Shown one piece after another: positions 4,232 through 18,850 of a stretch of 18,850 bases of DNA. The notes beneath the pieces were generated by a model. That model ran no database searches, had not been told where the DNA came from, and saw only the letters and a list, made by a program, of their open reading frames with translations. The position numbers and the translations under genes were made by a program. Source of the stretch: Tannerellaceae bacterium (lineage in GTDB: Bacteria; Bacteroidota; Bacteroidia; Bacteroidales; Tannerellaceae); the NCBI GenBank assembly GCA_031279915.1, contig JAITHO010000170.1, positions 1 through 18,850 of the forward strand. Reading direction: 5' to 3'. Position 1 is the stretch's first letter; the number at the start of each line of letters is the position of its first letter.

Positions 4232-4657
4232 ATGTTAATCAAGCAACTTTCAATTTTTCTCGAGAACAAAAAAGGGCGATTCACCGAGGTTGCCCGCATA
4301 CTGGGCGAAGCCGGCGTTAACATGTCGGCATTCACCGTGGCCGAGAGCTCCGACTTCGGCATCCTCCGCCTCATCGTATCCGACACCGACCGCGCCATCC
4401 AAGCCCTTCGGGAGCGCCTCTACGCCGTGAGCGTAACCGACGTTGTATGCCTCTACTGCCCCAATCAGCCCGGAGCCCTTGCCGCAGCAATGGAAATAAT
4501 CTCCAACGCCGGCATATTTGTGGAATACATGTACGCCTTTTCCCAGGGCGACTCTGCCCACGTCATCATCCGTCCCGACGACGTTGCACGTTGCGTTGAA
4601 GTCCTCCAGGAGAATCGTCTGACCTTACTTGCCGCAAGCGATTTGTATAAACTGTAA
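4232..4657 (+). CDS. tandem ACT-domain protein
   Basis: This 141-residue protein consists of two ACT modules: about residues 3-68 (LSIFLENKKGRFTEVARIL, with GVNMSAFTV) and about 71-138 (PNQPGALAAAMEII, with GIFVEYMYAF). There is no catalytic domain, so it is a stand-alone small-molecule sensor, probably for an amino acid or related ligand. It is 20 bases downstream of the PaaK-type ligase and ahead of a terminator, so the two form a transcription unit. Such ACT proteins are regularly paired with PaaK-type ligases. A regulatory role on that enzyme or its pathway is inferred, not shown. Confidence 0.9.
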   Translation: MLIKQLSIFLENKKGRFTEVARILGEAGVNMSAFTVAESSDFGILRLIVSDTDRAIQALRERLYAVSVTDVVCLYCPNQPGALAAAMEIISNAGIFVEYMYAFSQGDSAHVIIRPDDVARCVEVLQENRLTLLAASDLYKL

Positions 4658-4742
4658 GAGACGTCCGCGCCACATCTCACTGCCCTGTAAATATGTAAAG
4701 CTCGCGCACTCTTTAATAGATACTTCTCTTTTTATTATATTC

Positions 4743-4774
4743 AGCCTTCCGAACAGATTTCGGAGGGCTTTTTT
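4743..4774 (+). terminator. rho-independent terminator after the ACT gene
   Basis: An 11-bp stem (AGCCTTCCGAA paired with TTCGGAGGGCT, one G-T wobble) has a 5-base loop and a T-run at 4769-4774. It lies 86 bases after the ACT gene stop on the same strand. Confidence 0.9.
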
Positions 4775-4810
4775 CTGTTTCATCCACATTTCCCCCACTA
4801 TCGCTTTACA

Positions 4811-5000
4811 TCCCACCGAGTGGAAAGTCTGCGGGAAATTTGCGGCACAGTTTCCACCGGGTGGAAAGTCTCAGGGAAATTTGCGGCACAGTTTCCACCG
4901 GGTGGAAAGTCTCAGGGAAATTTGCGGCACAGTTTCCACCGACGTGGGAAACCGTCCGGTAAATGTTCGGCAAGGCTTCCAACGGCGTGGGAAAGCGTTC
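4811..5000. repeat. 41-bp tandem repeat array with palindromic junctions
   Basis: Units begin with TGGAAAGTCT at 4821, 4862 and 4903, an exact 41-bp spacing. Units 2 and 3 are identical over the 38 bases compared, and unit 1 differs at two bases. Further units at about 4945 and 4988 (TGGGAAA) are increasingly diverged with a 42-43 bp spacing. Each junction reads TTTCCACCGGGTGGAAA, 8-base palindromic arms around one base, so the array can form serial hairpins. Open frames across it on both strands have no recognisable protein features and are best explained by the repeat. It starts right after the terminator of the ligase-ACT unit. Confidence 0.85.
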
Positions 5001-5781
5001 GGCAGATCGGTCGGATTGATGCAAACGGCATTGTTCGAGACCGAGGCAATGTTCAAATTGGCTCTGCAAAGGGGATAAGGAAGGACCGGACAGCAATAGT
5101 GTTCTTTTTCTTTGATTTTAAGTTATAATGCAATGAATAATATATGCCTAATTCGTGGAAGGAGGGGCTCTGCCATTGTTTTCTGTTTACGGCTGGATCG
5201 ATGGAGATTCTTGCGAGTCTTCGAGGAGCCTCCAATGCATGATCGTCCGATAATTGCTTCGAGCTCGGGATGTTGCTTCGGCGAAGAGCAATCGCTCTGA
5301 ATCGGCGATCTTGCGGCATTCACCGACAATCGTGCGATGCAGATTAATGCCGGTGGGCGAGGCCATGTTCTTCCTCTGGGCAGCGCTATCGGCAACGGAG
5401 GAGGGTCGGCATGCCTGCAAGGCCGATCGAACGGCTGCGTCCAGAGTCTGTTCTGAACCCCATTCCAATTGCCGGCATCACTCTTCGCAGGAAATAATCT
5501 CCCCGACCTCTTTACATTTGCCCGACTAATGATAAGGGCACAATCTCCATTAAGCGGGGCGATTTGGGCAAGCTTGTAAGATGCGGGATTCCGTCGAACA
5601 CTCCAAAGACATTTCTCCATAAAATAAAGGTTCCGACCGACTTAGATCTGCGAACCGGAGGGTATATCCTCCAGCAAATGCTTCAATATACATTTCAGAG
5701 CCGATTCCTCAGCATAAGGCTCAAACTTAAAACACATAACCGCACTTTCACAAGCACGGTTATGGATTGAATAAACCTAAT
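5001..5781. other. gene-free region, about 780 bases
   Basis: I see no convincing gene here. Open frames exist, the longest being on the minus strand at 5123-5620 (165 codons). Its translation is rich in Arg, Pro and Cys, has no family motif and looks like chance translation of a moderately GC-rich non-coding stretch. There are short inverted repeats: CATAACCG (5735-5742) with CGGTTATG (5757-5764), and a loose pairing of TTTACATTTGCCC near 5511 with GGGCAAGCTTGTAA near 5566. This may be decayed coding DNA, a decayed mobile element or structured RNA. Nothing in it decides between these. Confidence 0.5.
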
Positions 5782-5806
5782 AAAAAAAGTATCCTAACGA
5801 TACTTT
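5782..5806 (-). terminator. rho-independent terminator of ppk1
   Basis: On the minus strand, an 8-bp perfect stem (AAAGTATC with GATACTTT, loop of 5 bases) runs into a stretch of seven T. It lies about 48 bases past the stop codon of the polyphosphate kinase gene. Confidence 0.88.
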
Positions 5807-5853
5807 ACAAATATCCAATCTAATGATAGTCACCCCGAAATCTGCGTCGTTAG

Positions 5854-7908
5854 CTATACCCGACTTTTCAGGTATTCATAAACAGCTGTTTGCGAACGCA
5901 GAGCCGGAAAGGTTTTGGTTTTACGGACATTATTCATGTGCTCATCAATAACACATGCCTTAACATTATCTTGTAGTTGAAGATTCAGTATACGACGAAT
6001 CTCCTGCTTTAATACCGGATCTAATATCGGAGAAGCCGCCTCTATGCGACGATTTAAGTTGCGATGCATCCAGTCGGCCGAGGATATAAATATCTCATCA
6101 TTTCCACTATTATAAAAATACCAGATTCGCGCGTGCTCAAGATACATATCCACTATGCGAGTAACGGAAATGTTTGGACTAAAGCTCTGCCCAGGCATCA
6201 AGCAGCAAATCCCCCGAACAATCAAGTCGACGCGAACCCCAGCCTGACCCGCAACATACAGCATATCTATCATCTCCTTATCATGAAGCCCATTCATTTT
6301 CAAAACAATATGGGCCCGCCGACCAGCAAGCGCATTATTCGCCTCGCGCATTATCATTCGCCTAAGCTCGTCGACCATATTGCAGCGAGCAACAAGCAAC
6401 TTCTTGAACACCGGCCTTATACTCTCAGCCGACAAATTATCAAGATAGGCAAATGTCGCAGCAACGTCAGACGTAAGTATAGCATTTGATGTAAGCATAG
6501 CAATATCCGAATAAATTCCAGCCGTCTTCTCATTGAAATTGCCCGTACTGATGCACGCAATGTCTGAGAGAGGAAGGCAGCGAGATATATGTGCAATCTT
6601 AGCATGAACCTTCAAGCGGACATTGCTGTAAATGATGTGAATACCAGCCTGCTCCATCTGCTCAGCCGTAAACATATTATTCTCCTCGTCGAAGCGAGCC
6701 TTGATCTCAACATAAACACGAACATCCTTGCCGTTTCTCGATGCAGCAATAAGCTGATTGATAACCTCCGAATGCTCGGCCACCCTATATTGCGTTATTT
6801 TTATTCCCACAACATTCGGATCCGTAGCAGCCTCTTTCAGTATGCGGATGAGATAATCGAACGACTGATACGGAAAATGCAGTAACACATCCCTTTCATT
6901 CACCACATCCATTACCGACGAGGCTCTTTCCAGCAACGGAATTCGCATCGGATACGGCAGCTTAGCCTCAAGCTCTTCACCAATAGGGTTAGGCAAATGA
7001 CGCAAATCCGCCAAATTCATATAACGAGCGCCCGCAACCAGATGATCCTCCGTAAAATCAAAAGCCTCGCAGATGAAATTCAAAAAATCCGCAGGCATTG
7101 CGCTATCATACATCACACGGCTTGGATAGCCATTCTTACGCTCGCGAAGCTTCTGGCGCATATCTGCAACAATGTCGTTTTCCCGAAGATCATCCAGCTC
7201 AATATCAGCATCTCGCGAAAGCTTAATACTATAACAACTGTCAATAGTATAAGCAGGGAAGAGCCAGCCGAGATTCGCCCGGATAACATCATCTATAAAC
7301 ATTATATAATAAACCCCGTCCTGCTCCGGAAGCTTAATAAAGCGCGGAACCTTCGAGAACGGAATTTTCATTATAGCATATTGAAAAGTATCGTCAGCAT
7401 CCTTTTTTCGCATCCTGACCACAAGATATAACCTTCTGTCTCGAATGAATGTCCGAATTTCGCCAGGGCGAATCATTACGGGCGACAAAAATGGAAAGAT
7501 GTCTCGCGTGAAAAACTCACGAACAAAATCCTCATGGAAGGTTTTCAAACAACTGTCGTGATACAAAAAAATCCGGTTACGAAAAAGCTCCGGAATTATC
7601 ATCTCATAAAAGATCCTGTGATACTCATATTGCTGCCGGTTAACTTCAGCGGTAATTTCGGCTAATGTTGCTTCCGCAAGCGCGCTATCTTCGGCCTCAG
7701 ATATCCTTCGCTTCATCGCAACTCCCATGTGTCCGGCAACCCTTATTTCGTAAAACTCTTCAAGATTCGAAGAATAAATCGACAGAAATTTTATGCGCTC
7801 AAATATAGGCAAACTGTCGTCCTCGGCCTCCAATAGCACTCTATAATTAAACGACAACCAGCTTAAATCGCGCTTAAAATATTCAAACTTTTGAGATATG
7901 TCTGACAT
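5854..7908 (-). CDS. ppk1: polyphosphate kinase 1
   Basis: This 684-residue Ppk1 reversibly polymerises the gamma-phosphate of ATP into polyphosphate. All four Ppk1 regions are visible: the N-terminal domain beginning FKRDLSWLSFNYRVL, the head domain (about 115-310), and two phospholipase D-like catalytic domains. His435 in LKVHAKIAHI is the autophosphorylated histidine, followed by ISTGNFNEKTAGIYSD. The second conserved histidine is His592 in YLEHARIWYF. Full length and intact residues indicate an active enzyme. No exopolyphosphatase gene flanks it, unlike many bacteria where ppk and ppx are adjacent. It has its own downstream terminator and is monocistronic here. I found no clear TAnnTTTG promoter directly upstream. 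Confidence 0.97.
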   Translation of the reverse strand: MSDISQKFEYFKRDLSWLSFNYRVLLEAEDDSLPIFERIKFLSIYSSNLEEFYEIRVAGHMGVAMKRRISEAEDSALAEATLAEITAEVNRQQYEYHRIFYEMIIPELFRNRIFLYHDSCLKTFHEDFVREFFTRDIFPFLSPVMIRPGEIRTFIRDRRLYLVVRMRKKDADDTFQYAIMKIPFSKVPRFIKLPEQDGVYYIMFIDDVIRANLGWLFPAYTIDSCYSIKLSRDADIELDDLRENDIVADMRQKLRERKNGYPSRVMYDSAMPADFLNFICEAFDFTEDHLVAGARYMNLADLRHLPNPIGEELEAKLPYPMRIPLLERASSVMDVVNERDVLLHFPYQSFDYLIRILKEAATDPNVVGIKITQYRVAEHSEVINQLIAASRNGKDVRVYVEIKARFDEENNMFTAEQMEQAGIHIIYSNVRLKVHAKIAHISRCLPLSDIACISTGNFNEKTAGIYSDIAMLTSNAILTSDVAATFAYLDNLSAESIRPVFKKLLVARCNMVDELRRMIMREANNALAGRRAHIVLKMNGLHDKEMIDMLYVAGQAGVRVDLIVRGICCLMPGQSFSPNISVTRIVDMYLEHARIWYFYNSGNDEIFISSADWMHRNLNRRIEAASPILDPVLKQEIRRILNLQLQDNVKACVIDEHMNNVRKTKTFPALRSQTAVYEYLKSRV

Positions 7909-8075
7909 AACTGTGCTTGTGTTTTATCGCTTTAATAACGCGCCTTAAACCGCTTTATTGCATGCTTCTGCAAATGTTTTAATAATCGCCTGAACAGCTG
8001 ATGGCAGTAATAAAAAGGGCATGTTAAAATCGGCTATATTCAACAGCTATACAACGAATTAAATACCTCCGTCGA

Positions 8076-8312
8076 CAATTGTTTTTTTGTTCATGCTAAT
8101 TGGCAAAACACAAAAAACAATTATTTTTTTGTTCTTGCTAATTGGCAAGACACGAAAAACAATTATTTTTTTGTTCATGTCAATTGTCAGGACGCAAAAA
8201 ATAATTGTTTTTTTGTTCATGTTAATTGGCAGGACGCAAAAAACAATTGTTTTTCGCAATATGCCAATTAGCAGGACGCAAAAAACAATTATTTTTTGCA
8301 ATACAACTTTTT
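8076..8312. repeat. 42-bp tandem repeat array (six clear units)
   Basis: The motif CAATT (TAATT in one unit) recurs at 8076, 8118, 8160, 8202, 8244 and 8286, an exact 42-bp period. A typical unit carries a T-run, GTTCATG, TAATTGGCAGGACGC and an A-run. The A-run, CAATTG and T-run together form a palindrome (AAAAAACAATTGTTTTTT at 8238-8254 approximately). Because 42 is a multiple of three, open frames run through it on both strands, giving 14-residue repeat translations; I take these as by-products. No unique spacers are present. The bases from 7909 to 8075, between ppk1 and the array, hold nothing I recognise. Confidence 0.92.
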
Positions 8313-8512
8313 AAAGTATGCCGTCGATAATGATTCCGCGAAACTCCTGGATCGAACATAAGGCGTCGACATTTATTGCTCGAAATGCCTCGATCATACT
8401 AAAAACTTGGATAATTATTACCGGAAATATGGCAATAGTTTTTGAGCCCTCCATCCTTATTGTTCACAATATGGCAATGAGCGAATTTGTGAATATATAT
8501 ATTGATCTTCTA
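8313..8512. repeat. degenerate continuation of the 42-bp array
   Basis: The same 42-bp phase continues past the clear units. AATATGCCAAT at 8258 is echoed by AATAC at 8300, AACTC at 8342, AATGC at 8384, AATATGGCAAT at 8426 and AATATGGCAAT at 8468, each exactly 42 bases on, with ATTATT-like sequence just before several of them. An open frame at 8318-8566 on the plus strand shows a matching 14-residue rhythm (RNSWIEH, RNASIIL, GNMAIVF, HNMAMSE). It is in the same frame as the open frame through the clear array, separated by one TAA at 8312-8314. I read it as decayed repeat rather than a gene. From 8513 to 8763 I see nothing further. Confidence 0.65.
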
Positions 8513-8763
8513 ATAGCAACAAGCATAGAAAAGAATATAATTATTGTTTGTAGAAGAGGCAACTAACGTGTTTATATGAACTAAAATTGTTTTGTATACG
8601 AAAGCAGATGTGTCCAAAATTTATTATTATGATTTTTAATATGAATTTGAACGAGTTTATTCAATTCAATTATTTCAGAAAATATAGAAACTAAGGTACT
8701 TATTAAAATAATCATTGCTTAGTATATAGCAACATCAGTGTTTGCTTCAGTTTTTATGAACAG

Positions 8764-8801
8764 AAAGCCGGAGGAAAGATTGGAGTCTTTCTTCCGGCTT
8801 G
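8764..8801 (-). terminator. stem-loop terminator after the DUF3244-like gene
   Basis: A 15-bp stem pairs AAGCCGGAGGAAAGA (8765-8779) with TCTTTCTTCCGGCTT (8786-8800), with one mismatch or wobble. It lies 26 bases past the stop of the minus-strand gene. The T-rich tract after it on the minus strand is weak and interrupted. Confidence 0.75.
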
Positions 8802-8826
8802 TCGACAATTTTGCAGATAGGGCTTG

Positions 8827-9213
8827 TTAGTCTACTGTCAATTTATCCATCATGGAGCCGATTCGGGGATGGGTCATAAGCAGGAGATAGGATCCGGACT
8901 TGAGCCCGGTGCGAACCGGAACGGTTAATCCGCCATTGGCCGACACTATTGTTTCGTATACAACAACTCCTTTGGGCGTGGCTACTGACACTTTCAGGTC
9001 GGTCATGTCGGTTGCGAATGACATGAGCACTACGCCGTTTTCAACTGTTACTGAGGGCAATACTTCGAGTGCGGCATATCGTCCGGCTGGATTTTGCGAA
9101 CGAAAATCTTTGCTGGTCCATCCGCCCATTACTGCGGGTGCGTCTTCTGCAAATAAAGTGGGAAATGACATTGAGGCTGTTAGCATAAGCGCAAATAATA
9201 CAATTCTTTTCAT
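8827..9213 (-). CDS. small secreted DUF3244-like protein
   Basis: This gene encodes 128 residues from ATG at 9213 (MKRIVLFALML); an ATG two codons upstream at 9219 is possible. The N-terminus is a Sec signal peptide ending near SFPTLFAED (about residue 22). The rest is a single all-beta domain, LKVSVATPKGVVVYETIV then GLKSGSYLLLMT, with a 'G..V.....G.Y.L' pattern. This fits DUF3244, an Ig/fibronectin-like module found as small periplasmic or surface proteins in Bacteroidales. It lacks the Lys-rich ending of a T9SS sorting domain. It stands alone, with its own possible promoter and a terminator. Its function is unknown. Confidence 0.7.
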   Translation of the reverse strand: MKRIVLFALMLTASMSFPTLFAEDAPAVMGGWTSKDFRSQNPAGRYAALEVLPSVTVENGVVLMSFATDMTDLKVSVATPKGVVVYETIVSANGGLTVPVRTGLKSGSYLLLMTHPRIGSMMDKLTVD

Positions 9214-9262
9214 AATCATACATTTTAATAATTAAACATTTTTGTTAAATTCGATTCGGGCT

Positions 9263-9291
9263 CAAATTAAAATGTTGATTGTAGCTACAAA
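9263..9291 (-). promoter_or_regulatory. possible Bacteroidota promoter for the DUF3244-like gene
   Basis: On the minus strand, a -33-like TTTG (9291-9288) is followed after 17 bases by TTAATTTG (9270-9263), a 7-of-8 match to TAnnTTTG. Spacing is slightly short of the usual 19 or so. The leader would be about 45 bases. Confidence 0.35.
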
Positions 9292-9383
9292 AAAGGCCGA
9301 GGTATATATCTTGTCGCTGGCCGGTATATGAAAAATAAATAGGATTTTTATTATAGCATAACTTGTATAACTGTTGTGGATTG

Positions 9384-9417
9384 AAATATTTCGCAGGGCT
9401 TAGGTTGCGAAATATTT
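9384..9417. terminator. 12-bp perfect stem-loop downstream of the TPR regulator
   Basis: AAATATTTCGCA (9384-9395) pairs perfectly with TGCGAAATATTT (9406-9417) around a 10-base loop. It lies about 95 bases beyond the stop of the minus-strand TPR gene and may end the asnA-ung-TPR transcript. There is no long T-run on either side, so it could instead be a processing site or a protein-binding palindrome. Confidence 0.45.
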
Positions 9418-9511
9418 TGCTATAAATGTTGCTAAGAAGGAGCGTTCAAAGGAGGCTCTTTTAATATATGTGGCCAGATATTGGGGAATGGCGCAGGAAT
9501 ATGCAAGCTTC

Positions 9512-11224
9512 CTACATGGAACTAATGAGCTGTTCCAAAAGTCCGGGTGCGCAGTCGGCTTGGAAGATGTCGAGGGAGAGTCTTTTGCAACGGTTGTTAA
9601 TTGCTTGCCGCGATAGTTTGAGTATTTTGCCAATATTTACTTTTCGCACTCTGGCTTTTAGCAGATAGCAAATGAATATATCCTCTTTTGATGTAATCTT
9701 CAGCAAATTGGTTATGCCTAATTTGAATCTGGGATATTGCATGTCGGTTAATTCAAAAAACCCTTCCAGCTCGTCCATGGTTATAGTATTTATTTGCCGG
9801 TCATTATGCAGGCGCAGGTAAATTTCGGAGTTAAAATACTGTTTTGCGGCTTTTTCTTGATCTTCCAGGGTTTTGAGTATCCAGAGATTTGCAAGTTCAA
9901 AGAGATGTATCTTGGAGGCAATAAGGTCTCTTCTTTTTTTGTTTTTTTGCTTTTCTATTTGCAACTGAGCAATCATTGCAATATTTTTTTCAACTTGCTC
10001 GAGAGAACGTTGCATCTCAATGTTGTGGAAATTGAGGAAGACCTCTTCTCGAGCTTTTGCTTCGCGCATTCGTTTGCGGTGTATTCTTATAATGTAGGCT
10101 GTTGCGCAGGAAGTTACGAAGAATAAAACTGCGAGAGCAATCCAGAAGTTTAGCCATGCTCTATTGCTTGCTTCACGGGCTTTTGTTGCGATTTTTTGTA
10201 TTTTCTGATGATCATATAGGGCCTGCAATTCTATTGTTGTTTGCGTATGCAGGCGAGTTTCAAAGGTATCGCGTAGTAATTCATATTGCGTTTGATATTT
10301 TATATAATTCTCGTATCGATAGCTATGGCGTGAGAGCTGTGCGAGGTATTTATATGCTCCAAGACGAGTTTCAAGCTTTGGGGCATTTATGCAAGAGTTG
10401 AGATATCGAATTGCAGAGTCTGGTTGATTTATTGTAACAAAATAACGGCCAATATGCAGGCTGGCGAGAGGCAAATCTTCTTCGTCGGCGGTATTAACTG
10501 CCTCGCGGAGAGACACGTAAGCGCTGTCGTAGTCATGTCTTACAGTCAGGCGTTCTCCGAGTTCGGAGAGGATGGAAGGTTTCGCAATGTGGTTTGCATA
10601 TTGAAGCGCTTCTCTATAATAATCAATGGAGGTGTCAAGGCTGTCCATAAGTCCGTAATTACGTGCGATATTGCGCAAAATGTAAGACTGCGCAACGGTG
10701 TCATTCAGGAGCAAGATATGATGGAGTGATTTTTTGAGGTAGGTAATTGCATCCCTGTAAGCATATTGTGAGGTGTAGAGTTGGCCAAGTTGGTTGCAGG
10801 TGAGCGCAAGTTGGAAGGTATCTTTGGCTGTTTCGCCAACATCAATGGCTTTGAGATAGTATTCTTGCGCAAGTGGCGCATTTTGAAGTTCTTGCGAAAC
10901 TCGTCCCATGAAATAATATGCTTTGGCGAGGGCTTTGGGATTGTAGTGTCGTTCGTAGTATTGTACGGCGGTTTTGATGAGAGAGTCGTCGGTGTGACGT
11001 CGGTTAATTTTGTCTTGTGCGTTAGTGACGGCGATTGCCCATCTGGCGTTGTATTCGTCGGAGAAGGCGGTTCGGTCGAGACTTTTGAGTAGAATTATTG
11101 AGTTTTCGGGCTGATTGTCGACCATTCGTTCGGCAATCAAAAAGTATTCATAAGAGGTTTTTTCACACGATAGTGCAAAAAAAAAGACAGCAAGTATTAT
11201 GCTTAGTTGTAGAGTTTTTTTCAT
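9512..11224 (-). CDS. membrane TPR protein with C-terminal helix-turn-helix
   Basis: This gene encodes 570 residues from ATG at 11224 (MKKTLQLSIILAV); the frame extends 12 codons upstream into ung, but that part has no signal-like sequence. In order there are: a signal or anchor with a lipobox-like FALSC (Cys20); tetratricopeptide-type helical pairs at about 25-330 (for example KALAKAYYFMGRVSQEL); a transmembrane helix at about 358-380 (FWIALAVLFFVTSCATAYII); a basic coiled coil at about 381-435; and a C-terminal helix-turn-helix-like segment, VNIGKILKLSRQAINNRCKR (from about 529). This layout is common in Bacteroidales as one-component membrane regulators: periplasmic TPR sensor, cytoplasmic DNA-binding tail. 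Its targets are not evident. It begins 29 bases after the ung stop. Confidence 0.8.
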   Translation of the reverse strand: MKKTLQLSIILAVFFFALSCEKTSYEYFLIAERMVDNQPENSIILLKSLDRTAFSDEYNARWAIAVTNAQDKINRRHTDDSLIKTAVQYYERHYNPKALAKAYYFMGRVSQELQNAPLAQEYYLKAIDVGETAKDTFQLALTCNQLGQLYTSQYAYRDAITYLKKSLHHILLLNDTVAQSYILRNIARNYGLMDSLDTSIDYYREALQYANHIAKPSILSELGERLTVRHDYDSAYVSLREAVNTADEEDLPLASLHIGRYFVTINQPDSAIRYLNSCINAPKLETRLGAYKYLAQLSRHSYRYENYIKYQTQYELLRDTFETRLHTQTTIELQALYDHQKIQKIATKAREASNRAWLNFWIALAVLFFVTSCATAYIIRIHRKRMREAKAREEVFLNFHNIEMQRSLEQVEKNIAMIAQLQIEKQKNKKRRDLIASKIHLFELANLWILKTLEDQEKAAKQYFNSEIYLRLHNDRQINTITMDELEGFFELTDMQYPRFKLGITNLLKITSKEDIFICYLLKARVRKVNIGKILKLSRQAINNRCKRLSLDIFQADCAPGLLEQLISSM

Positions 11225-11253
11225 TGTCCGAGAAATAAAAAAATAAGGAGTTA

Positions 11254-11916
11254 CTACCATTCAATCCCCTTTTTCCGGCATGCTATCAGGTAATCATTTG
11301 TTTGACTGAAGTGTTTGTTACCAAAGAATCCTCTATAAACGGAGAGTGGGGAAGGATGTGGTGATCGCAGTACGAGGTTTTGCCTGTCGGGGATGATGTC
11401 GCCTTTTTTCTGTGCGTAGGCTCCCCACAGGAGGTATACTATGTGTTTTTTGTTTTCGACAAGTCGGCGTATAACGGCATCTGTGAAGGTTTCCCATCCT
11501 TTATTTTGGTGAGAGCCAGCTTGTCCGGCTCTGACGGTGAGGGTTGCATTGAGGAGTAACACTCCTTGTCGAGCCCAGCGGCTGAGGTCGCCGCTTGTGG
11601 GGATTTCGATGCGTAGGTCGTCGCGAAGTTCTTTGAAAATGTTGTCAAGAGATGGAGGGAAGGGTACTCCATCTCTTACTGAGAAGCAAAGTCCGTGGGC
11701 TTGTCCGAGCTCATGATAAGGGTCTTGTCCTAGGATAACGACTTTGACGTTGTCAAAAGGGCAATATTTGAAAGCATTGAAGATATCTGGGCCTGGCGGG
11801 TATACGGTTGCGGTCCGGTATTCCTCTTTTACGAAAGCGATTAGCTTATGAAAGTAATCTTTTTCAAATTCGTCGGCTAATTGTACTTTCCAGCTGGATT
11901 CGATTTTGACTTCCAT
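11254..11916 (-). CDS. ung: uracil-DNA glycosylase (family 1)
   Basis: This 220-residue enzyme removes uracil from DNA as the first step of base excision repair. Family-1 motifs are all present: the water-activating loop GQDPYH (residues 63-68, Asp65), the PPSLDNIFKEL segment (88-98), LLLNATLTVRAGQAGSH (120-136), and the HPSPLS minor-groove loop (187-192, His187). Length and motifs match the Escherichia coli enzyme closely. It follows asnA by 19 bases and precedes the TPR regulator on the same strand, so the three are probably co-transcribed, although no shared role is obvious. Confidence 0.97.
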   Translation of the reverse strand: MEVKIESSWKVQLADEFEKDYFHKLIAFVKEEYRTATVYPPGPDIFNAFKYCPFDNVKVVILGQDPYHELGQAHGLCFSVRDGVPFPPSLDNIFKELRDDLRIEIPTSGDLSRWARQGVLLLNATLTVRAGQAGSHQNKGWETFTDAVIRRLVENKKHIVYLLWGAYAQKKGDIIPDRQNLVLRSPHPSPLSVYRGFFGNKHFSQTNDYLIACRKKGIEW

Positions 11917-11935
11917 GGCTAGCGATTTTCGCGCT

Positions 11936-12970
11936 TCAGATAATGTTCATACCGGCGTTTATTGCGTCTTGCCGCATCTGTTCGGGCCAGATACTTGCCT
12001 GGATTTCTCCTATGTGAGCTTTGCGGAGATAAAACATGCAGAGTCGGCTTTGTCCGATTCCGCCGCCTATGCTTTGTGGGAGCTCGTTGTTTAGCAGCCG
12101 TTTATGGAAATATAGTTCTGTTCTGTTTTCTGCATTGCAGAGTGCGAGCTGCCGTAGGAGAGTTTGTGGGTCGACACGAATGCCCATTGAGCTGAACTCG
12201 AGGGCGTGGTTAACGAGATCGTACCACACGAGAATGTCGCCGTTGAGTCCTATTCCTTCGGGGGTTGTGGTCGACCAATCGTCGTAGTCAGGAGCTCGTC
12301 CGTCATGTTTTTCTCCGTTACTTAGCTTATTTCCTATGCCTATGATAAATACGGCGCCGTATTCTTTGGCGATAGCGTCTTCTCGTTCTTTGACGGATAG
12401 CTGTGGATAGCGTTGCAGGAGTTCCTCGGCATGTATAAAGTGGATGTCAGGCGGTAAAATCGGTCGTATTGCAGGAAACATTTCGTATACCATATATTCG
12501 GTTCGCACCATTGCAGCATATATTCGGCGAACAATCATGCGCAGGAAGTCGAGATTACGTTCGTTATCGCTCATAACTCGTTCCCAATCCCATTGGTCAA
12601 CATACAGTGAGTGGAAGTTCCCTAAAGATTCGTCGGGCCGTATAGCATTCATGTCGGTATAGATTCCATAGCCTTCCTCGATATTATAGTCAGCCAGGGT
12701 TAGCCGTTTCCATTTGGCGAGCGAATGTACGATTTCGGCCGTAGAATCTTGTAAATCTTTGATTGGAAAAGCTACCGGACGTTCAACGCCGTTAAGGTCG
12801 TCGTTGATACCTGTTCCTTTCATAACAAATAATGGGGCGGTCACTCTGCGAAGACGGAGTTCGGCCGACAAATTTTGTTGGAAGAAGTCTTTAATGGCTT
12901 TGATGCCTAATTCTGTTTGGGCAAGGTTAAGTAGAGCATGATACCCTGCCGGTTTGATCAAATAACTCAT
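11936..12970 (-). CDS. asnA: aspartate-ammonia ligase (asparagine synthetase A)
   Basis: This 344-residue AsnA makes asparagine from aspartate, ammonia and ATP in the cytoplasm. It has the class II tRNA-synthetase-like fold. Conserved segments include GTGINDDLNGVERPV (51-65), VHSLAKWKRLTL (81-92), SLYVDQWDWERVM (residue 121 onward) and the C-terminal ATP-binding GGGIGQSRLCMF. Length is near the 330 residues of the E. coli enzyme, and nothing is missing. It is the first gene of the minus-strand run asnA-ung-TPR, and a possible promoter lies directly upstream. Confidence 0.97.
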   Translation of the reverse strand: MSYLIKPAGYHALLNLAQTELGIKAIKDFFQQNLSAELRLRRVTAPLFVMKGTGINDDLNGVERPVAFPIKDLQDSTAEIVHSLAKWKRLTLADYNIEEGYGIYTDMNAIRPDESLGNFHSLYVDQWDWERVMSDNERNLDFLRMIVRRIYAAMVRTEYMVYEMFPAIRPILPPDIHFIHAEELLQRYPQLSVKEREDAIAKEYGAVFIIGIGNKLSNGEKHDGRAPDYDDWSTTTPEGIGLNGDILVWYDLVNHALEFSSMGIRVDPQTLLRQLALCNAENRTELYFHKRLLNNELPQSIGGGIGQSRLCMFYLRKAHIGEIQASIWPEQMRQDAINAGMNII

Positions 12971-12980
12971 GGTATATCCT

Positions 12981-13012
12981 GTAATTAGATTTTTTTTACT
13001 GCCGACAAAGTT
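12981..13012 (-). promoter_or_regulatory. possible promoter of asnA
   Basis: On the minus strand, TTTG in AACTTTGTCGG (near 13008-13011) is followed about 18 bases later by TAATTACA, a partial match to the -7 box. Placement relative to the asnA ATG is right (leader about 15 bases), but the -7 match is weak. Confidence 0.3.
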
Positions 13013-13060
13013 AACGAAATGTTTTTTTTATTGCAAGTTCTCTGTACTTTGTCATCGGAA

Positions 13061-13133
13061 TGCCGGGGAGCTTAGTGAATAGATCGTCAGTTTCCGGTTC
13101 TGAAGGTAGTGGGTTTGACTCCCACCCAGGTCA
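13061..13133 (+). tRNA. tRNA-Arg(CCG)-like gene or remnant
   Basis: The 73 bases fit the tRNA cloverleaf register exactly. The T arm is perfect (GTGGG 109-113 with CCCAC 121-125, counted from 13000). The anticodon stem is TCAGT/TCTGA (4 of 5 pairs) with loop TTCCGGT, anticodon CCG at 13094-13096 and T33 in place. The acceptor is TGCCGGG/CCAGGTC (5 of 7 pairs), followed by discriminator A. Several near-invariant bases are absent: position 8 is G, the D-loop lacks GG, position 56 is T rather than C, and one D-stem pair is broken. CCA is not encoded. A strong terminator follows, and a TACTTTG element (13045-13051) precedes. It is either a divergent tRNA, a tRNA pseudogene or a tRNA-like small RNA. 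Confidence 0.4.
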
Positions 13134-13168
13134 CTGCCAAACCTTAATTCGACATTTTTGCATACGTA

Positions 13169-13211
13169 AAGCCTTTCGCATAGCTTATTGCGAAAGGCTT
13201 CTTTTATTTTT
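13169..13211 (+). terminator. strong terminator after the tRNA-like unit
   Basis: A perfect 12-bp stem (AAGCCTTTCGCA with TGCGAAAGGCTT, 8-base loop) is followed by CTTTTATTTTT. It is oriented on the plus strand, 36 bases after the tRNA-like sequence, with no plus-strand protein gene upstream that it could serve. From about 13212 to the barrel gene promoter I see nothing else. Confidence 0.9.
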
Positions 13212-13394
13212 GGCAGGAGTTGTTCGGATTTTTTTTCAGAACGATCTCAAGTCCATCGTGATTTTGCGATGTTTTGCGTAGGCTGCTATCAGCTCGGAGA
13301 ATGTTTTGCGGAAAGAGATGCGGGCGGTTGTGCGTGTAATAATGAGGGTTTTGAGTAGGCGATCGCTGATAGGAGGAAACTCAAAAGTGTTTCT

Positions 13395-13402
13395 TATATT
13401 TG
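13395..13402 (+). promoter_or_regulatory. -7 box upstream of the barrel gene
   Basis: TATATTTG is a perfect match to the Bacteroidota -7 consensus TAnnTTTG. No clear -33 TTTG is present. It is so close to ATG 13407 that the transcript would have almost no leader, which also leaves ATG 13413 as a possible start. Confidence 0.45.
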
Positions 13403-13406
13403 CGAT

Positions 13407-14045
13407 ATGAAAATGCGTATCCCTTATATTAATGTAATGATAACGGCGGGTTGCTTGATGATTTTCGGCATGCAAAGCGCATACCCAAGGATTTATTTAG
13501 GCGGCAAGGCAGGTATATCACGGTCTTCAATCGTGCAGAAAATGGATCTCGACTATCGCTCCGGATGGAGCGTTGGATGGAACTTAGCGGCTATGGCCGA
13601 CGTTCCAGTGTCTGAGCGTTTTTCCTTACGTCCGGAGCTGGCTCTGATTTCGCAGGGAGGATCGTTTTTGGGCGGAGATGGGGTTGCATATATTTGGGAG
13701 CATGACGTTGACGCTTATGCCATTCAGCCAACTTTTCACATTGCATATAGCTTCCCGATTCTTGATGTAAAAATGACGGTTTATGCTGGGCCGGCTCTCA
13801 CATTCCAGCTCTCCAGCAAGCTTCAGTCGAAAGTATTAGTGCAAGAAGATGTGCCGCAGATGGAGCAGTCGGTACGCTCGTTTGACTTTGCCGGAAGTGG
13901 AGGAATCAGTGTAGAGTACAGAGGTGCATTTTTCTCGATTACGACAGTGAGCGGCTTATTAGACAGGCGACGCTTGCCGGTGGAGGGCGAAGGAAAGGTA
14001 TTGCAAAACAATTTGACCTTCTCGCTAGGCTATTTCTTCCGATAA
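13407..14045 (+). CDS. outer-membrane beta-barrel protein (PorT-like)
   Basis: This 212-residue protein has a signal peptide (about residues 1-26, ending MQSAYPRIY). The rest is alternating short beta strands such as IYLGGKAGISRS, GWSVGWNLAAMADV, MTVYAGPALTFQL and GGISVEYRGAFFSITTV. It ends with an aromatic strand, NLTFSLGYFFR. This is the pattern of the small 8- to 10-strand barrels grouped as outer-membrane beta-barrel/PorT-like proteins in Bacteroidota. It stands alone between the tRNA-like unit and converging genes. Function cannot be told; PorT itself is a T9SS component, but this family is large and mixed. Confidence 0.75.
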   Translation: MKMRIPYINVMITAGCLMIFGMQSAYPRIYLGGKAGISRSSIVQKMDLDYRSGWSVGWNLAAMADVPVSERFSLRPELALISQGGSFLGGDGVAYIWEHDVDAYAIQPTFHIAYSFPILDVKMTVYAGPALTFQLSSKLQSKVLVQEDVPQMEQSVRSFDFAGSGGISVEYRGAFFSITTVSGLLDRRRLPVEGEGKVLQNNLTFSLGYFFR

Positions 14046-14226
14046 CATTTTTTACAATCGTGTAGGATAAAGGGGCGGATTCCCGACTCTGTCCTAGCAC
14101 GATCGCTGTGCGTGCCGACGGATACAGTATGCCGACGCGCTTTGCTTTTGCCTTGAGCTAAAGGTTTCAACAACCCTCCTCCGTATCCAACTTGCATCGC
14201 CAATCGGCATTGATGCTCTGCACTCT

Positions 14227-14264
14227 AAAAAAAGAAGCCTTCCTGCGGGTACAGGAAGGCTTCT
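14227..14264 (-). terminator. terminator of the OmpA-like/TPR lipoprotein gene
   Basis: A perfect 13-bp stem pairs AGAAGCCTTCCTG (14233-14245) with CAGGAAGGCTTCT (14252-14264). On the minus strand it is followed by a run of T (complement of A at 14227-14233). It is 35 bases beyond the stop of the minus-strand gene. The gap on its plus-strand side, 14046-14226, shows no gene. Confidence 0.92.
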
Positions 14265-14298
14265 ATTGAGTTTGAACAAATGTTTGTTTGCGATTTAT

Positions 14299-15993
14299 TT
14301 ATTGTCCAAGTAATGAAGCAAATTCGGCATTGCTGATATACTTTGCAAATTCTATGTCGTTGGCTGCTTCTTTCAGGTATGTTCGGTCTTTGGCGATGGC
14401 CGATCGGAGGCTGCTGACGACGCTTCCGGTGTCATTCGTTCTTGCGGCTACGATGGCTTTGAGGTAGTCGGTAAGAGCATTTGGATTGACAACGGAGTTG
14501 AGTGTTTGCAAGGCTTTGCTGTAATCTTTGGTGAGAATCTGTGCTAAAGCGGCATTATTGCTCTTGGATGACGATAGCGCGGAAGCTGCTTGCGCAAAGT
14601 TGCCTTGCTGCAGATTAAGGAGTCCAAGAGCTTCGTTAAGCTCTGGTACGCCGGCTGCACTGCCAAGCAATTGCTGAGCCTTAGCTTGATCGCTTTTAGC
14701 GAGGGCGATCAGTCCGAGATTCATGTTGGTTTCCGGAGTGTTTTTAACGGAGCTTGCTTTGCTGAACATTTCTTCGGCTTTGGGGAGATCGCCTGCCATG
14801 AAGCGTATCATGCCGATGTTATTCCACGTGCGATAGTCATTGGGATAGAGCTGACTGGCCTTTGTGTATATAGATTCTTTTTCGTTAACATTATTGAGTA
14901 GGGTTGCGGCATACAGGATTTCTTCGACGCTAAGCGCTTGGGGATTGCTGTTGGCGAGCGCCTTGATTTCGTCGTCCGACTTGCCGATGATTTCAACGTT
15001 GGCGGTCAGCCTTGAGCGGCGTAATTGCGGAAGGATTTCGTCGGCGAGCACACTGAATACGGAGGAGATGTTCTTGATCTCCTTTTCGCGCTGTTCGGGA
15101 TCTTTGTACATGGAGAGCACTCTTAGCACCAGATCTTTGTCTTGAATGTTCGACTTCGATACTAGTTCTTGGAATCCATCCCAGTCTTGAGCTTGGTAGT
15201 GGGCATCGATCGGCACGTTGACTTTGGCCTTCTTGAGTTCTTGCGCTACGTAGCGTTCTGTTACGGCTTCGCGTCGTTCGGCAAGTCCTGTGTTGAGCTT
15301 CACGCCTCCGTCGGGCGATGCGTTGGCGAAGATTTCGACGGCTACGTTCTGATTTGGAGCTTCGTCGGCATTCTTAACCACATTCTTCCAGTCTGTGACT
15401 TCTTGCTTGCTGAGTTCTTTTGAACGGAGTTCGGCTTGCTGGATTAGGAACATGATATTGGCATCATAAGCTTGCTTGATGATGCGTTGGAACTTATCGG
15501 CTCCGATGGCGGGCTTAGCGGAGGCTGCATCGGCGAGTTCGGCTGTGGCTATCACTCCGTCGCCGATTTTGATGTCGGGGAGCTGCACGGCTTTGTTCTT
15601 AATCTTTGCATCGAAGGTCAGGTAGAGCTCCGATTTTTTCATCTCGGGCTTGTAATTGAATGTCGATTTCATGGTCACGTTTCCTCCGGCGCTTTGTGAA
15701 ATGCTTTGGTTGTTACCTTTTACTTTCTCTCCTTGGAATGTGTAGGCTGTGCCCCAGGATTCGCCTCCTTGATAACGGAGAACTGGTGTTACGGTCACTA
15801 CGGCATTCTTGTTAAACCATTTTGCGGGGAAGGTTGCGTCTATCGTTACCGGAACTTTTCCTCCAGCGGCTTCCAATGGTTGAGGAGTGGCTTTTACGTA
15901 ATCTCCGGCCAATGGATTCAATTTGCCGGAACAAGATGAAAGTGTCACAATAATCGCCAGCGTTAAGAGTGGCAATAAATACTTTTTGCTCAT
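14299..15993 (-). CDS. OmpA-like and TPR lipoprotein
   Basis: This gene encodes 564 residues from ATG at 15993 (MSKKYLLPLLTLAIIV). The upstream extension of the frame is Asn/Arg-rich and lies in the leader. The signal peptide ends in a lipobox, TLSSC (Cys21). Residues 25-150 are a beta-rich domain (KVPVTIDATFPAKWFN, then ELYLTFDAKIKNK). About 216-338 resembles the OmpA C-terminal fold seen in Bacteroidales surface lipoproteins: VEIFANASPDGGVKLNTGLA, RREAVTERYV, then a DWDGFQELV segment. About 365-540 is TPR-like (YPNDYRTWNNIGMIRFMAGD). It is likely outer-membrane anchored and peptidoglycan-associated, organising envelope or secretion machinery. P. gingivalis PorE also joins TPR and OmpA domains, but the order and the other domains differ. 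Confidence 0.8.
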   Translation of the reverse strand: MSKKYLLPLLTLAIIVTLSSCSGKLNPLAGDYVKATPQPLEAAGGKVPVTIDATFPAKWFNKNAVVTVTPVLRYQGGESWGTAYTFQGEKVKGNNQSISQSAGGNVTMKSTFNYKPEMKKSELYLTFDAKIKNKAVQLPDIKIGDGVIATAELADAASAKPAIGADKFQRIIKQAYDANIMFLIQQAELRSKELSKQEVTDWKNVVKNADEAPNQNVAVEIFANASPDGGVKLNTGLAERREAVTERYVAQELKKAKVNVPIDAHYQAQDWDGFQELVSKSNIQDKDLVLRVLSMYKDPEQREKEIKNISSVFSVLADEILPQLRRSRLTANVEIIGKSDDEIKALANSNPQALSVEEILYAATLLNNVNEKESIYTKASQLYPNDYRTWNNIGMIRFMAGDLPKAEEMFSKASSVKNTPETNMNLGLIALAKSDQAKAQQLLGSAAGVPELNEALGLLNLQQGNFAQAASALSSSKSNNAALAQILTKDYSKALQTLNSVVNPNALTDYLKAIVAARTNDTGSVVSSLRSAIAKDRTYLKEAANDIEFAKYISNAEFASLLGQ

Positions 15994-16074
15994 GTTAATG
16001 TAAGTTTTTGAATTGTTACTATTTGTTTGAATTATATGTTTTCGATTGGTATTACGTCCCCGATTTTCTTTTCG

Positions 16075-16082
16075 CAAAACTA
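16075..16082 (-). promoter_or_regulatory. -7 box of the OmpA-like/TPR lipoprotein gene
   Basis: The minus strand reads TAGTTTTG, a perfect fit to TAnnTTTG, about 82 bases before the ATG. No good -33 element is seen. Confidence 0.4.
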
Positions 16083-16148
16083 AACGTTTTTTTGATTATG
16101 CTGATACGCATCTCTTTATTTTCCGTACAATTAATACTTATTAATGAT

Positions 16149-18380
16149 TTACAGAACGAGCTTTTGGCTGTATGATTCTGTGCCGTATCTAAGCTGGGCT
16201 ATGTATATTCCCGGAGCCTGATCTTCGAGCTCTATTGTGGCCGAGGAGCCTTCGATTCGCCGCTCTATTAGCTTGCGGCCGTTGAGGTCGTAGAGGATGA
16301 GGATTGCAGAGGATATGTTGGGCTCCAGAACGATGTGCAGCGCGCGTCGTCCGCGCTCGGTGTATATGCCGGCGGGAGGGAGCTCCGGAACTGGTTCGAC
16401 CGAACTGCCGTCGGTGTAGCGCACTACCGGATCGATGAAGAGCGAGGTAGCGAATCCGACATTCGCAAATTGAGGCGCTTGGATCCAGCCGCCGGTGGAG
16501 CGAATCCAAGTCGTGTTGCCTACGGTCATTCCGCGACGCAGATTGTAGGCGGCGAAGCTGGAGTAGGGCGGCGAGGATATCCGATAGCCGATAAAGAAGC
16601 TGCCTGTGACTTTTACGGGAGCGGCAAACTTAACGAAGGTCTCCTGCGCGCGATTCAGCCGTTTGGGAGCCTCTACTACTGCATAACCGGGAGGCGACAT
16701 GTCTTTGTAGGCGGGAGAGAACGGCTCCGAATGCAGTTCGTCGGCGGCGCGTCCGTTGATTGAGGCATACAGAACGATCTCGGTTTTCATCGTCGACGGA
16801 TCATCGGTTACCGACGGAGTGACGATGTAAGCGCCTTCAACGTATGCCGTGCCGAACACCTGATACTCCTCAGCAAATTCTTTCGCTCCCGAGGCATTCA
16901 ATCCAAACAGATTCCCGCCTTGAGGATGTTGTGCGACTTCAATGCTGTCGTTGAGCCGAGCCTCCATGATATTGCTGAGCCGATAGCTGGGAGAGCTCTC
17001 GTAAGGATCGATTCCGCCTATCTGATTCGCCTTGACGCCGGCTGTATCCAGCCATGCCTTGAGCTGCTCGCCCGCATTCGACGAAGGCTCCCAAGCCTTG
17101 TGCAGAGCATAATAGAAGTCATCGCGAGGATCGTTGCAACTTGAGTTTCCGCCCGAAAGCAATCCCACAAGACGGCTGGAATCATCAAAGAGCGGACCGC
17201 CCGACGAACCCGCATCCGTGCACCCTTCGGCATACAGCCCCACATTCCAATGCGAGTTGGCCTGAAAATGACTGATGGGGAACGTTCGCAGCGTCAGAGT
17301 ATCCGCAACCCTATTGTATCGCTTCGGACTAGCTCGCGGATGATGCAGCACAGTGTAGGGCGGCAATCCACCCTTTTCATCCAGCGTCCAGCCTGCATAG
17401 AACGGACGAAAATGTGGCGGAGGCATCCCATTCAGCTCCAGCAGCGCCATATCAACCGATTCATTCACCCCCAAAAGCCGAGCCGACGCCATCGACATCT
17501 CCTCCGCTCCGCGAATAACCGTATCGCAAGTCGGACTGTTGTAGTTGAAAAAAGTTATTATACGCCCCGCTATCGCCACGTAATCAGGGTTGGAAATCTG
17601 GAAGTTATTATTCAGGCAATGAGAAGCGGTCAGCAGCAGCGGGCGTCCGTCGTTCGACGTATTATTCACCAAAACCCCCGTGCAAGCGCGAGTGCCGTCG
17701 ATAGTGAGCAGCACCGTCGTTCTCGACAGCGAATCACGACCGCCCTCCGACGCCAAACATTGCGTGGCCGGCATGCACCACATATCCTTGGCATCACCGC
17801 CGGGCTCGTAGCCAAGCAAGCTTCGATAAGCGTGATTTATCTCCCCTACCCTAATTTTACCCGCAAATGCCGCCCGCTCAGGCTCCTGATACTCAACAAC
17901 AATCTCCTCGCCCCATACCGGCGCCACCGGCAGCAACCCATCCTCCGAGTTATTCAAGCAATCGAATGCTCCCAAAATTTGCCTTTGCTTCGGATCATAC
18001 AAAAAAAGTTTCGCCCCCTCAGGCAGTTCAAATTCCGTAAACAAAATATTAATCGACAAAGCCCCGCGCGACCGAATCCGCAGCCGCCACACCAGCGTCC
18101 CATCATTAAGCCTGAAGCTCGCCCCCGAATTATCCCTACCGAAATCCGTTACAAACTTATACGCAAACTTATAGCCCCCGCGCAGCCCAACATTCTCAGC
18201 CGAATCCCGCATCAGCTCCAAAGCCAGGTCGAAGGGCGGCATCTCCTCCACCCGATGCTCCGTCAGCCCTCGCGTTTCGGCCAGCGGCAGCGGGCGTCCT
18301 CCGCGGCTCAGTTGCGCCATACAGCGGCCTCCCGTAGCCAGTAGCAGCGTAATTCCTATACATATATATATATACTTCAT
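16149..18380 (-). CDS. secreted trypsin-like serine protease with T9SS sorting domain
   Basis: This 743-residue protein has a signal peptide (1-22, ending CMAQ) and a propeptide-like region (about 23-200, WRLRIRSRGALSINI). The S1-type catalytic domain covers about 203-445, with His254 (LLLTASHCL), Asp310 (SVDMALLEL) and Ser393 (CTDAGSSGGPLFD). Cys233 and Cys255 sit where the His-loop disulfide is found. After a beta-sandwich region (about 480-660) the C-terminus (about 672-743) is a type A T9SS sorting domain: LYDLNGRKL, APGIYIAQLRYG, and the final SQKLVL. The layout resembles lysyl-endopeptidase-type proteases of Bacteroidota. It should cross the outer membrane through T9SS and be surface-attached or released. 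Cleavage specificity is not determined from sequence. Confidence 0.9.
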   Translation of the reverse strand: MKYIYICIGITLLLATGGRCMAQLSRGGRPLPLAETRGLTEHRVEEMPPFDLALELMRDSAENVGLRGGYKFAYKFVTDFGRDNSGASFRLNDGTLVWRLRIRSRGALSINILFTEFELPEGAKLFLYDPKQRQILGAFDCLNNSEDGLLPVAPVWGEEIVVEYQEPERAAFAGKIRVGEINHAYRSLLGYEPGGDAKDMWCMPATQCLASEGGRDSLSRTTVLLTIDGTRACTGVLVNNTSNDGRPLLLTASHCLNNNFQISNPDYVAIAGRIITFFNYNSPTCDTVIRGAEEMSMASARLLGVNESVDMALLELNGMPPPHFRPFYAGWTLDEKGGLPPYTVLHHPRASPKRYNRVADTLTLRTFPISHFQANSHWNVGLYAEGCTDAGSSGGPLFDDSSRLVGLLSGGNSSCNDPRDDFYYALHKAWEPSSNAGEQLKAWLDTAGVKANQIGGIDPYESSPSYRLSNIMEARLNDSIEVAQHPQGGNLFGLNASGAKEFAEEYQVFGTAYVEGAYIVTPSVTDDPSTMKTEIVLYASINGRAADELHSEPFSPAYKDMSPPGYAVVEAPKRLNRAQETFVKFAAPVKVTGSFFIGYRISSPPYSSFAAYNLRRGMTVGNTTWIRSTGGWIQAPQFANVGFATSLFIDPVVRYTDGSSVEPVPELPPAGIYTERGRRALHIVLEPNISSAILILYDLNGRKLIERRIEGSSATIELEDQAPGIYIAQLRYGTESYSQKLVL

Positions 18381-18423
18381 ATTTATTTTGTTTCAAATAA
18401 TGCATTTAAATTATGGATAGCCA

Positions 18424-18431
18424 CAAATATA
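18424..18431 (-). promoter_or_regulatory. -7 box of the secreted protease gene
   Basis: The minus strand reads TATATTTG, a perfect match to TAnnTTTG, 43 bases before the protease ATG. The leader would be about 35-40 bases. No -33 TTTG is obvious at the expected spacing. Confidence 0.5.
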
Positions 18432-18534
18432 CGTTTTTGGATTTACAGATGAGGCCTGCCCGCAGCGAAAGCCTGGTTATCGTTTTGAATTATGATTGCC
18501 GATATTCCATAGATGATTTATTCTCAAAATATTT

Positions 18535-18850
18535 TTTCGCAAACAAATAAAACCGTTAAATGGGCTCAAAAATTTGCTGGACGATATTTAAACGTGTAAA
18601 TGGCGTCCAGCAACTTTTGGAGTCCATATCACAGTGTAAATGGCGTTCAGCAATTTTTTTTCATCCAATTAAATTTATTTTTTTCAGATAAAACATCTGC
18701 CGAAATCCGATGAAATTCGTTTTTTTCGTCTAAAATCTGCTGGACGCCGATCACAAATGTTTTTTCCTCCAAAAATTTTGCTGGGCGGAAAACACACTTG
18801 TTTTTTTTCTAAAATCAATTGCTGGACGGAAAAATCAAACGTTTTTTCCT
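18535..18850. repeat. 40-41-bp tandem repeat array, runs off the window
   Basis: TAAATGG recurs at 40-bp spacing in three units (TTAAATGG or TGTAAATGG from about 18555, 18595 and 18635). GCTGGACG or close variants recur at 18699 (diverged), 18739, 18780 and 18821, spaced 40, 41 and 41. T-runs of six to eight bases separate the later units (about 18720, 18760, 18800, 18841). The first part carries the core inverted (CGTCCAGCAA at 18604-18613), which pairs perfectly over 10 bp with TTGCTGGACG at 18574-18583. The array continues beyond the right edge, so its full length is unknown. Between the protease promoter and 18534 I see nothing else. Confidence 0.8.

Follow-up and report, generated by a model that had tools for sequence, protein, structure and literature searches.

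Intergenic tandem arrays that keep a 40-42-bp step while their sequence changes: a possible class of bacterial satellites in a Tannerellaceae genome

REP and BIME sequences are intergenic palindromic repeats, sometimes arranged in tandem, and the conserved REP sequence is tied to a Y1 transposase. The LTRR repeats of heterocystous cyanobacteria are conserved-sequence families whose units, a few tens of bp in length, lie in tandem between genes. In plasmid iterons, direct repeats of about 20-22 bp present one helix face to an initiator protein. In eukaryotic satellite DNA, monomer length is conserved, the sequence evolves in concert, and families are species-specific. Here we describe three intergenic tandem arrays (arrays 1, 2, and 3) in the window, a stretch of 18,850 bp that is a whole contig (JAITHO010000170.1; G000:C24) of a Tannerellaceae bacterium, and compare them with arrays elsewhere in its genome (G000; 2.09 Mb in 229 contigs, 61% complete) and in the closest relative examined (G017; 83% complete). 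We tentatively regard the three arrays as members of a class of bacterial satellites that occupies intergenic sites across the chromosome and whose unit length is constrained at the DNA level; the joint probability of this whole explanation, class and constraint together, is about 40%.

These arrays resemble REP and BIME sequences in being intergenic and palindromic but lack a conserved sequence. They share with the LTRR repeats tandem intergenic units of tens of bp, the latter being described as conserved-sequence families. Unlike iterons, they are chromosomal, occupy many sites, and have no common sequence or known initiator. Length-preserving concerted evolution and species-specific families are shared with eukaryotic satellites, from which the present arrays differ in being bacterial, short, dispersed over many gaps, and free of nucleosomes. 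The nearest published case among those we found is BrickBuilt of Porphyromonas gingivalis, one family of 23-nt repeats at 19 places, covering 0.44% of the genome, with a leader, a tail, and small terminal inverted repeats, and with a leader or tail at most places (PMC4596501). BrickBuilt is likewise an intergenic tandem repeat of Bacteroidales that steps by about two helical turns (23 nt), has a leader, is predicted to form long stem-loops, and has no Rfam match; an Rfam scan of the window gave zero matches. Unlike BrickBuilt, the present arrays form many families with a shared 40-42-bp step, make up 2.8% of the sampled sequence, and turn over their sequence at conserved sites. In the open-access literature that we searched, we saw no account of arrays whose length is fixed and whose sequence varies.

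The arrays of the window and the parts belonging to them are as follows.

4811..5000, strand not applicable: array 1, 41-bp units (Tandem Repeats Finder [TRF] and autocorrelation)
4689..4812, + strand: leader of array 1, ~125 bp; its hairpin at 4743-4769 resembles an intrinsic terminator (terminator scan)
8075..8297, strand not applicable: array 2, 42-bp units, 5.3 copies, 85% (TRF; autocorrelation)
8298..8510, strand not applicable: decayed tail of array 2, lag 42 identity 0.52 vs a shuffle 95% level of 0.37
18535..18850, both orientations: array 3, a mosaic of 40-41-bp units, cut by the contig end

An earlier note on this DNA had claimed three intergenic arrays with a 40-42-bp period, and these periods were confirmed by autocorrelation: the best lag was 41 in array 1 (0.68 over 4811-5000) and 42 in array 2 (0.80 over 8075-8330), and array 3 gave lags 40 (0.49) and 41 (0.46) over 18535-18850, all above the 95% levels of dinucleotide shuffles (0.36-0.39). 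TRF detected arrays 1 and 2 in the window and missed array 3, probably because units of the two orientations are mixed in the latter. In detail, array 1 has 3.1 near-identical copies at 4813-4941 (TRF, 41 bp, 96%) followed by a decayed continuation, and its unit carries the palindrome TTTCCACCGGGTGGAAA at the centre. Array 2 holds a palindrome of the AAAAACAATTGTTTTT type, and array 3 has the cores GCTGGACG at 18576, 18739, and 18821 and CGTCCAGC at 18604. The ungapped match of 22 in 29 bases that had been reported between arrays 2 and 3 is exact, and it survived a shuffle check: the best 29-mer (23/29) was matched by 0/200 dinucleotide shuffles on the same strand and by 1/200 on either strand. 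Array 1 had been said to share no core with the others, and we found no similarity above shuffles to array 2 or array 3 (0.995 and 0.89 of 200 shuffles, respectively, scored equally well). At E<=1e-3, the array 1 family lies on 6 G000 contigs including the window, that of array 2 on 2 contigs (with a copy at C122), and that of array 3 on 21 contigs, window included, with at least 49 matches, a lower bound (40 of 49 candidates scored) in which some matches are the two strands of one array. Matches between array 2 and its copy stop where the array stops (query 8075-8330); its G017 relatives occupy the orthologous site and also occur on contigs C15, C25, C9, and C12.

Loci fetched by chance matches (e.g., L007, L012, L060) also carried arrays stepping by ~41 bp, with other sequences, and we therefore sampled contigs systematically. 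Every eleventh contig, taken twice, gave 40 contigs and 304,625 bp of G000, in which arrays were called by TRF at period >=15 and score >=100. In 41 of the 47 arrays the period was 40-42 bp or a multiple of this (34 at 40-42; 7 at 81-83 or 167), and the remaining six had periods of 21, 21, 23, 32, 45, and 54. Further arrays of this period, which the earlier note had suggested searching for, are thus many (41/47 in 305 kb). They numbered ~1 per 7.4 kb (13.5 per 100 kb) and took up 2.8% of the sampled sequence; by extrapolation, the G000 assembly would hold some 280. In G000, 16/43 arrays have no gene on one side because the contig stops there, which suggests that arrays interrupt the assembly and that more of them probably exist than were counted. 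In G017, 10/27 lie at contig or stretch ends. In G017 (ten stretches, 166 kb), the density was 15.1 per 100 kb, with 25/37 arrays at 40-42 bp or multiples. Unit lengths in 121 arrays of both species, a set partly picked via array matches, were 40 bp in 12, 41 bp in 55, and 42 bp in 54; lengths of 39 and 43 bp were allowed and occurred in none of the 121. Over all the arrays, the steps included 21, 41-42, 63, 82-84, 123-126, and 167 bp.

Control sequences were given the same treatment, except that the score threshold was relaxed to 50; we tallied arrays whose period was 40-42 bp or a multiple of this. None was found in G007 (200 kb), six other genomes of the family (240 kb), six genomes of the order (160 kb), 15 named Proteiniphilum-type loci (295 kb), or a Markov simulation (300 kb), and one was found in 8 named Parabacteroides loci (160 kb). 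Within the genus there were 2 in G002 (20 kb), 1 in G003 (36 kb), 2 in G005 (29 kb), 1 in G008 (36 kb), 0 in G001 (16 kb), and 1 in ten others (145 kb); these figures lean high, as three stretches were selected for arrays already seen there, but in the opposite direction, arrays beside the kinase gene in G001 and G003 fall outside the tabulated stretches.

The sites of arrays persist between G000 and G017. Of the 54 syntenic gaps flanked on either side by conserved genes, both genomes had arrays in 6, G000 alone in 1, G017 alone in 0, and neither genome in 47; array gaps of G000 were shared by G017 in 6/7 cases vs 0/47 array-less gaps (Fisher 2.7e-7), in a table for which several loci were fetched through array matches and from which gaps with neighbours failing the filter are absent. 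One array absent from the table, L266:3678, is found in G017 only (gap of 344 bp vs 38 bp in G000). Sites with one conserved flank added 4 with arrays in both species and 4 with arrays in G000 only, that of array 3 being among the latter. At all ten sites with arrays in both species the period was 41 or 42, or 82-84 where TRF prefers the double unit. Their sequences ranged from clearly related units (3 sites) through divergence in register (1 site) to little or no similarity (6 sites; shuffle fractions 0.13 to 0.93, with 0.035 for a second G017 array at one of them). At the array 1 site, units of the two species reach a cyclic identity of 0.49 at best, just over the 0.47 that marks the 95% level of the null. 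Copy number was nearly equal at two of the eight sites compared (4.4 vs 4.4; 5.4 vs 5.3).

The site diverged in register (L252:10154 in one species, L245:10355 in the other) is the most informative. Common flanking words enclose exactly 192 bp in each species, with 4.4 copies of a 41-bp unit each; identity is 95% within species and 57% between them in register, and no other offset between -20 and +20 exceeds 0.39. The copies have evolved in concert, with no net change in length. There was 1 gap per 249 mismatches in the four homologous array pairs and 16 per 359 in their flanks, a contrast that is suggestive only: the end gaps, which hold the copy-number differences, were trimmed, and units that copy changes from one another do not vary independently. 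Unit length is kept, and the sequence turns over in concert. Some stretches adjoining arrays are strongly conserved between the species, such as the right gap end of L252/L245 and the window at ~8040-8095; one example is ~45 bp ending in TATATAAATATGATAT. They are perhaps promoters.

We clustered 95 unit consensuses, in which a few arrays were met twice and some came from other genomes, and a strict threshold split them into 42 clusters, the largest two holding 20 and 18 (38 together, by single linkage). Judged by sequence matches, the array families are species-specific: the array 3 family had 1 match in G017 at E<=1e-3 and 6 at E<=1, and a G017 family with 48 matches there (E<=1) had none in G000. 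A cyclic motif fit to 54 non-redundant units gave an information of 11.5 vs 10.2 (sd 0.18) in dinucleotide shuffles (11.3 vs 8.6 against simple shuffles), and 25% of unit pairs reached the 95% level of simple shuffles. Some weak likeness among units is therefore present, made up of A/T runs, palindromes, and real families. In a cross-species hold-out, a model from 32 G000 units recognized 0/22 G017 units (95% level; p 0.15), and we dropped the idea of one general motif for all arrays. The 42 clusters and the failed hold-out also speak against a single conserved repeat of the BrickBuilt type for the whole class. The earlier note had placed the arrays in one dispersed noncoding family. They are indeed mostly intergenic, dispersed, and diverging with length kept; the single family gave way to many, with array 1 unrelated to arrays 2 and 3, and no common sequence generalized between species.

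As to unit anatomy, a dyad score >=6 was reached by 22/64 G000 and 16/57 G017 arrays, vs 6.8% and 6.1% of dinucleotide shuffles. Whole-unit dyad symmetry had a mean z of 1.9 (41 arrays) and 1.6 (27 arrays) with many arrays at chance, and was rejected as a property of every array; it is a tendency only. The + strand of arrays 1 and 2 folds best. As single-stranded DNA (+ strand), array 1 gave z -4.7 against shuffles, array 2 z -3.9, the first part of array 3 z -4.1, and its second part z -0.9; as RNA, the two strands gave z -4.9 and -2.8 for array 1 and z -5.7 and -4.0 for array 2. Edge copies were no more decayed (0.919) than inner ones (0.911-0.917). In the A/T signal of the units, the 20.7-bp harmonic was raised (z 4.3). 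Half-period identity was 0.292 vs 0.279 in shuffles and >=0.5 in 3/121 arrays, and doubling of a 20.5-bp unit was rejected as the general origin of the unit.

In the explanation that we favor, the unit is ~41 bp long and often carries 14-20-bp palindromes, and other arrays step by ~21 bp or by multiples of 41-42. Gene conversion or slippage within arrays would homogenize the copies, and families would spread from site to site within a species. What holds the length would be a reading of the array as double-stranded DNA, two helical turns at a time. The reader would most simply be a putative dimeric DNA-binding protein of low sequence specificity, sitting side by side on palindromic half-units, and its presence on the arrays may mark or insulate the gaps between transcription units. 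In favor of this explanation we count the fixed period, the palindrome excess, the shared sites, the equal lengths at the site diverged in register, the low gap count within arrays, and the occurrence of arrays in gaps of all three gene orientations. The step series and the 20.7-bp harmonic suggest a quantum of two helical turns. To this extent they agree with the earlier note, which had proposed that spacing along the helix face matters; A-tract phasing at the helix repeat was rejected, since the fourth harmonic (10.4 bp) was not raised (z 0.4). It is rather unlikely that the whole picture holds, namely that a few hundred short satellites conserve helical length and not sequence, as a dispersed, sequence-independent two-turn scaffold for a putative dimeric architectural protein that would assemble between genes, with the DNA evolving in concert like that of eukaryotic satellites.

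Several observations, the flat fourth harmonic among them, weigh against the DNA-level constraint. The strongest A/T harmonic is that at 13.8 bp (z 7.1), and 41 bp corresponds to 3.9 turns at 10.5 bp per turn. Off-series steps exist (23, 32, 45, and 54 in G000; 22, 23, 46, 60, 66, and ~350 in G017), and clear palindromes are found in only ~1/3 of the arrays. Copy number differs at the other six compared sites (e.g., 6.1 vs 8.3, 3.3 vs 7.3), and among the four related sites it is equal at only 2/4. Compensatory changes within arrays numbered 24 vs 18.8 in shuffles (highest shuffle 28), so that no excess was seen and compensatory evolution was set aside as evidence for hairpins. Young low-copy arrays (units >=20 bp) already have the step, with 10/13 at 40-42 bp and 1/13 at 81 bp; a ruler within the copying process would be the more direct explanation of this.

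Such a ruler would lie in whatever duplicates DNA in ~41-bp steps (slippage at hairpins, an enzyme that nicks or recombines DNA, or a fixed-size repair patch); unit length would then be functionless and the palindromes a product of hairpin guidance. Beside the young arrays, which are the reason to favor it, the palindrome excess in units, the single-stranded folding seen in arrays 1 and 2 and in the first but not the second part of array 3, and the variation of copy number at most shared sites, as slippage would give, are consistent with this main alternative, which we hold to be a serious possibility though short of even odds. Alone, it does not explain arrays kept in the same gaps (6/7 vs 0/47) or equal lengths at one strongly diverged site, and these two facts are why we favor a constraint on the finished array. 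Nor were candidate enzymes found in G000 or G017, both incomplete: PF01797 (Y1, RAYT-type) had 0 matches in these two and was present in 19/36 genomes searched, and PF01867 (Cas1) was found in 1/9 genomes, neither of them among the hits. REP/RAYT and Cas1-type duplication were rejected on this ground, as was a CRISPR array, the units being contiguous. On balance we lean to the DNA-level constraint, giving the copying ruler nearly equal weight. Sequence is the usual means of recognizing bacterial repeats. In the present arrays it is expendable, and length is retained at many intergenic sites and on both sides of a species split. A constraint acting on DNA would point to a chromosome organization in Bacteroidales that is invisible to sequence searches, and one lying in copying would point to an enzyme or repair mode that measures ~41 bp.

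Dispersal could also bring the arrays, if mobile elements like miniature inverted-repeat transposable elements (MITEs) carried a minisatellite, as in BrickBuilt, and the period were inherited. The leader of array 1 recurs beside related arrays (blastn; 82% over 125 bp at L163, 71% over 105 at L254), beside a different 42-bp array (L171, 73% over 104), and as a 32-bp piece without an adjoining array (L173, 94% over 32), and array 1 may be of BrickBuilt make. Array flanks are more alike than unique DNA would be (47 similar pairs among 107 flanks in G000 and 96 among 85 flanks in G017, 30 of each inspected, in a comparison that includes neighboring arrays of one gap), and the array 3 family, on 21 G000 contigs, is nearly absent from G017, with the reverse for the G017 family of 48 matches. 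This origin is nevertheless improbable for the class: 42 unit clusters of one period would imply many elements of independent origin, a separate dyad-symmetric repeat accounts for part of the flank similarity, and one site holds diverged arrays in register in both species without an insertion. A function at the RNA level, with transcribed hairpin arrays acting as, e.g., 3' ends, stabilizers, or terminators, would fit the RNA folding of arrays 1 and 2, which beats shuffles on both strands. We consider it quite improbable. Genes on both sides of 27 G000 arrays were convergent in 7, codirectional in 11, and divergent in 9, and the terminator scan, which covered arrays 1 and 2, found no terminator-like site inside them; intrinsic terminators were rejected on these two grounds. 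In addition, the window gave no Rfam match, compensatory changes showed no excess, and RNA hairpins do not require a 40-42 step. Assembly errors or repeats within genes are a very improbable cause. Crude open reading frame (ORF) overlap was <20% in 32/43 G000 and 16/27 G017 arrays and >=20% in 11/43 and 11/27, and this overlap and the arrays at contig or stretch ends speak for such a cause, and some 42-bp arrays of the set may be coding. However, two separate assemblies concur on sites and step, and control genomes under the same treatment show none or few. Periods of 40 and 41, which are common, are not multiples of three, and of two ORFs over array 1 one had no Pfam match and the other only one below the cut-off; coding repeats were rejected accordingly.

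The separate dispersed repeat mentioned above is dyad-symmetric, MITE-like, ~160-200 bp long, and present in both species. Its sequence has the form GTCATTCCCGCGAAGGCGGGAATC...GATTCCCGCCTTCGCGGGAATGAC and is in places bounded by TGTCAAAAG / CTTTTGACA.

L152:3880-4076, L152:16660-16847, L153:513-700, and L244: dyad-symmetric repeat of 160-200 bp; weaker in L125, L127, and L164 of G000

Array 2 (8078-8315) contains sigma-70-type promoter-like matches on both strands that recur with the unit. Over 4600-9300 there were 24 such matches vs 10.6 (sd 3.7) in shuffles; promoters of Bacteroidota differ from the sigma-70 type. Parabacteroides-type genomes have short 22-bp arrays instead, at 2.5-3.5 per 100 kb. 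These are palindromic, occur in L064, L093, L107, and stretches of G007, G013, and G027, often have 3.4-3.9 copies (74-86 bp), and in some cases share a recurring ACAACTGTTGAAC-like core; they are possibly a smaller version of the 41-bp feature. In G017 there are also tandem repeats of ~350 bp in 3-4 copies (L157:19-1307, L158:1078-2112).

The gene content of the window is ordinary, with a ROK kinase, a NUDIX protein, an AMP-binding ligase, an ACT-domain protein, a polyphosphate kinase, a uracil-DNA glycosylase, AsnA, a trypsin-like protease, and others. The polyphosphate kinase gene is placed as follows.

5854-7908, - strand: polyphosphate kinase gene, with array 2 upstream

The top match of this kinase (84%) is in 'Tannerellaceae bacterium isolate Pc512_bin25', a naming style that would fit a lineage living in insect guts, and the next matches (61-63%) are in Parabacteroides and another Tannerellaceae record.

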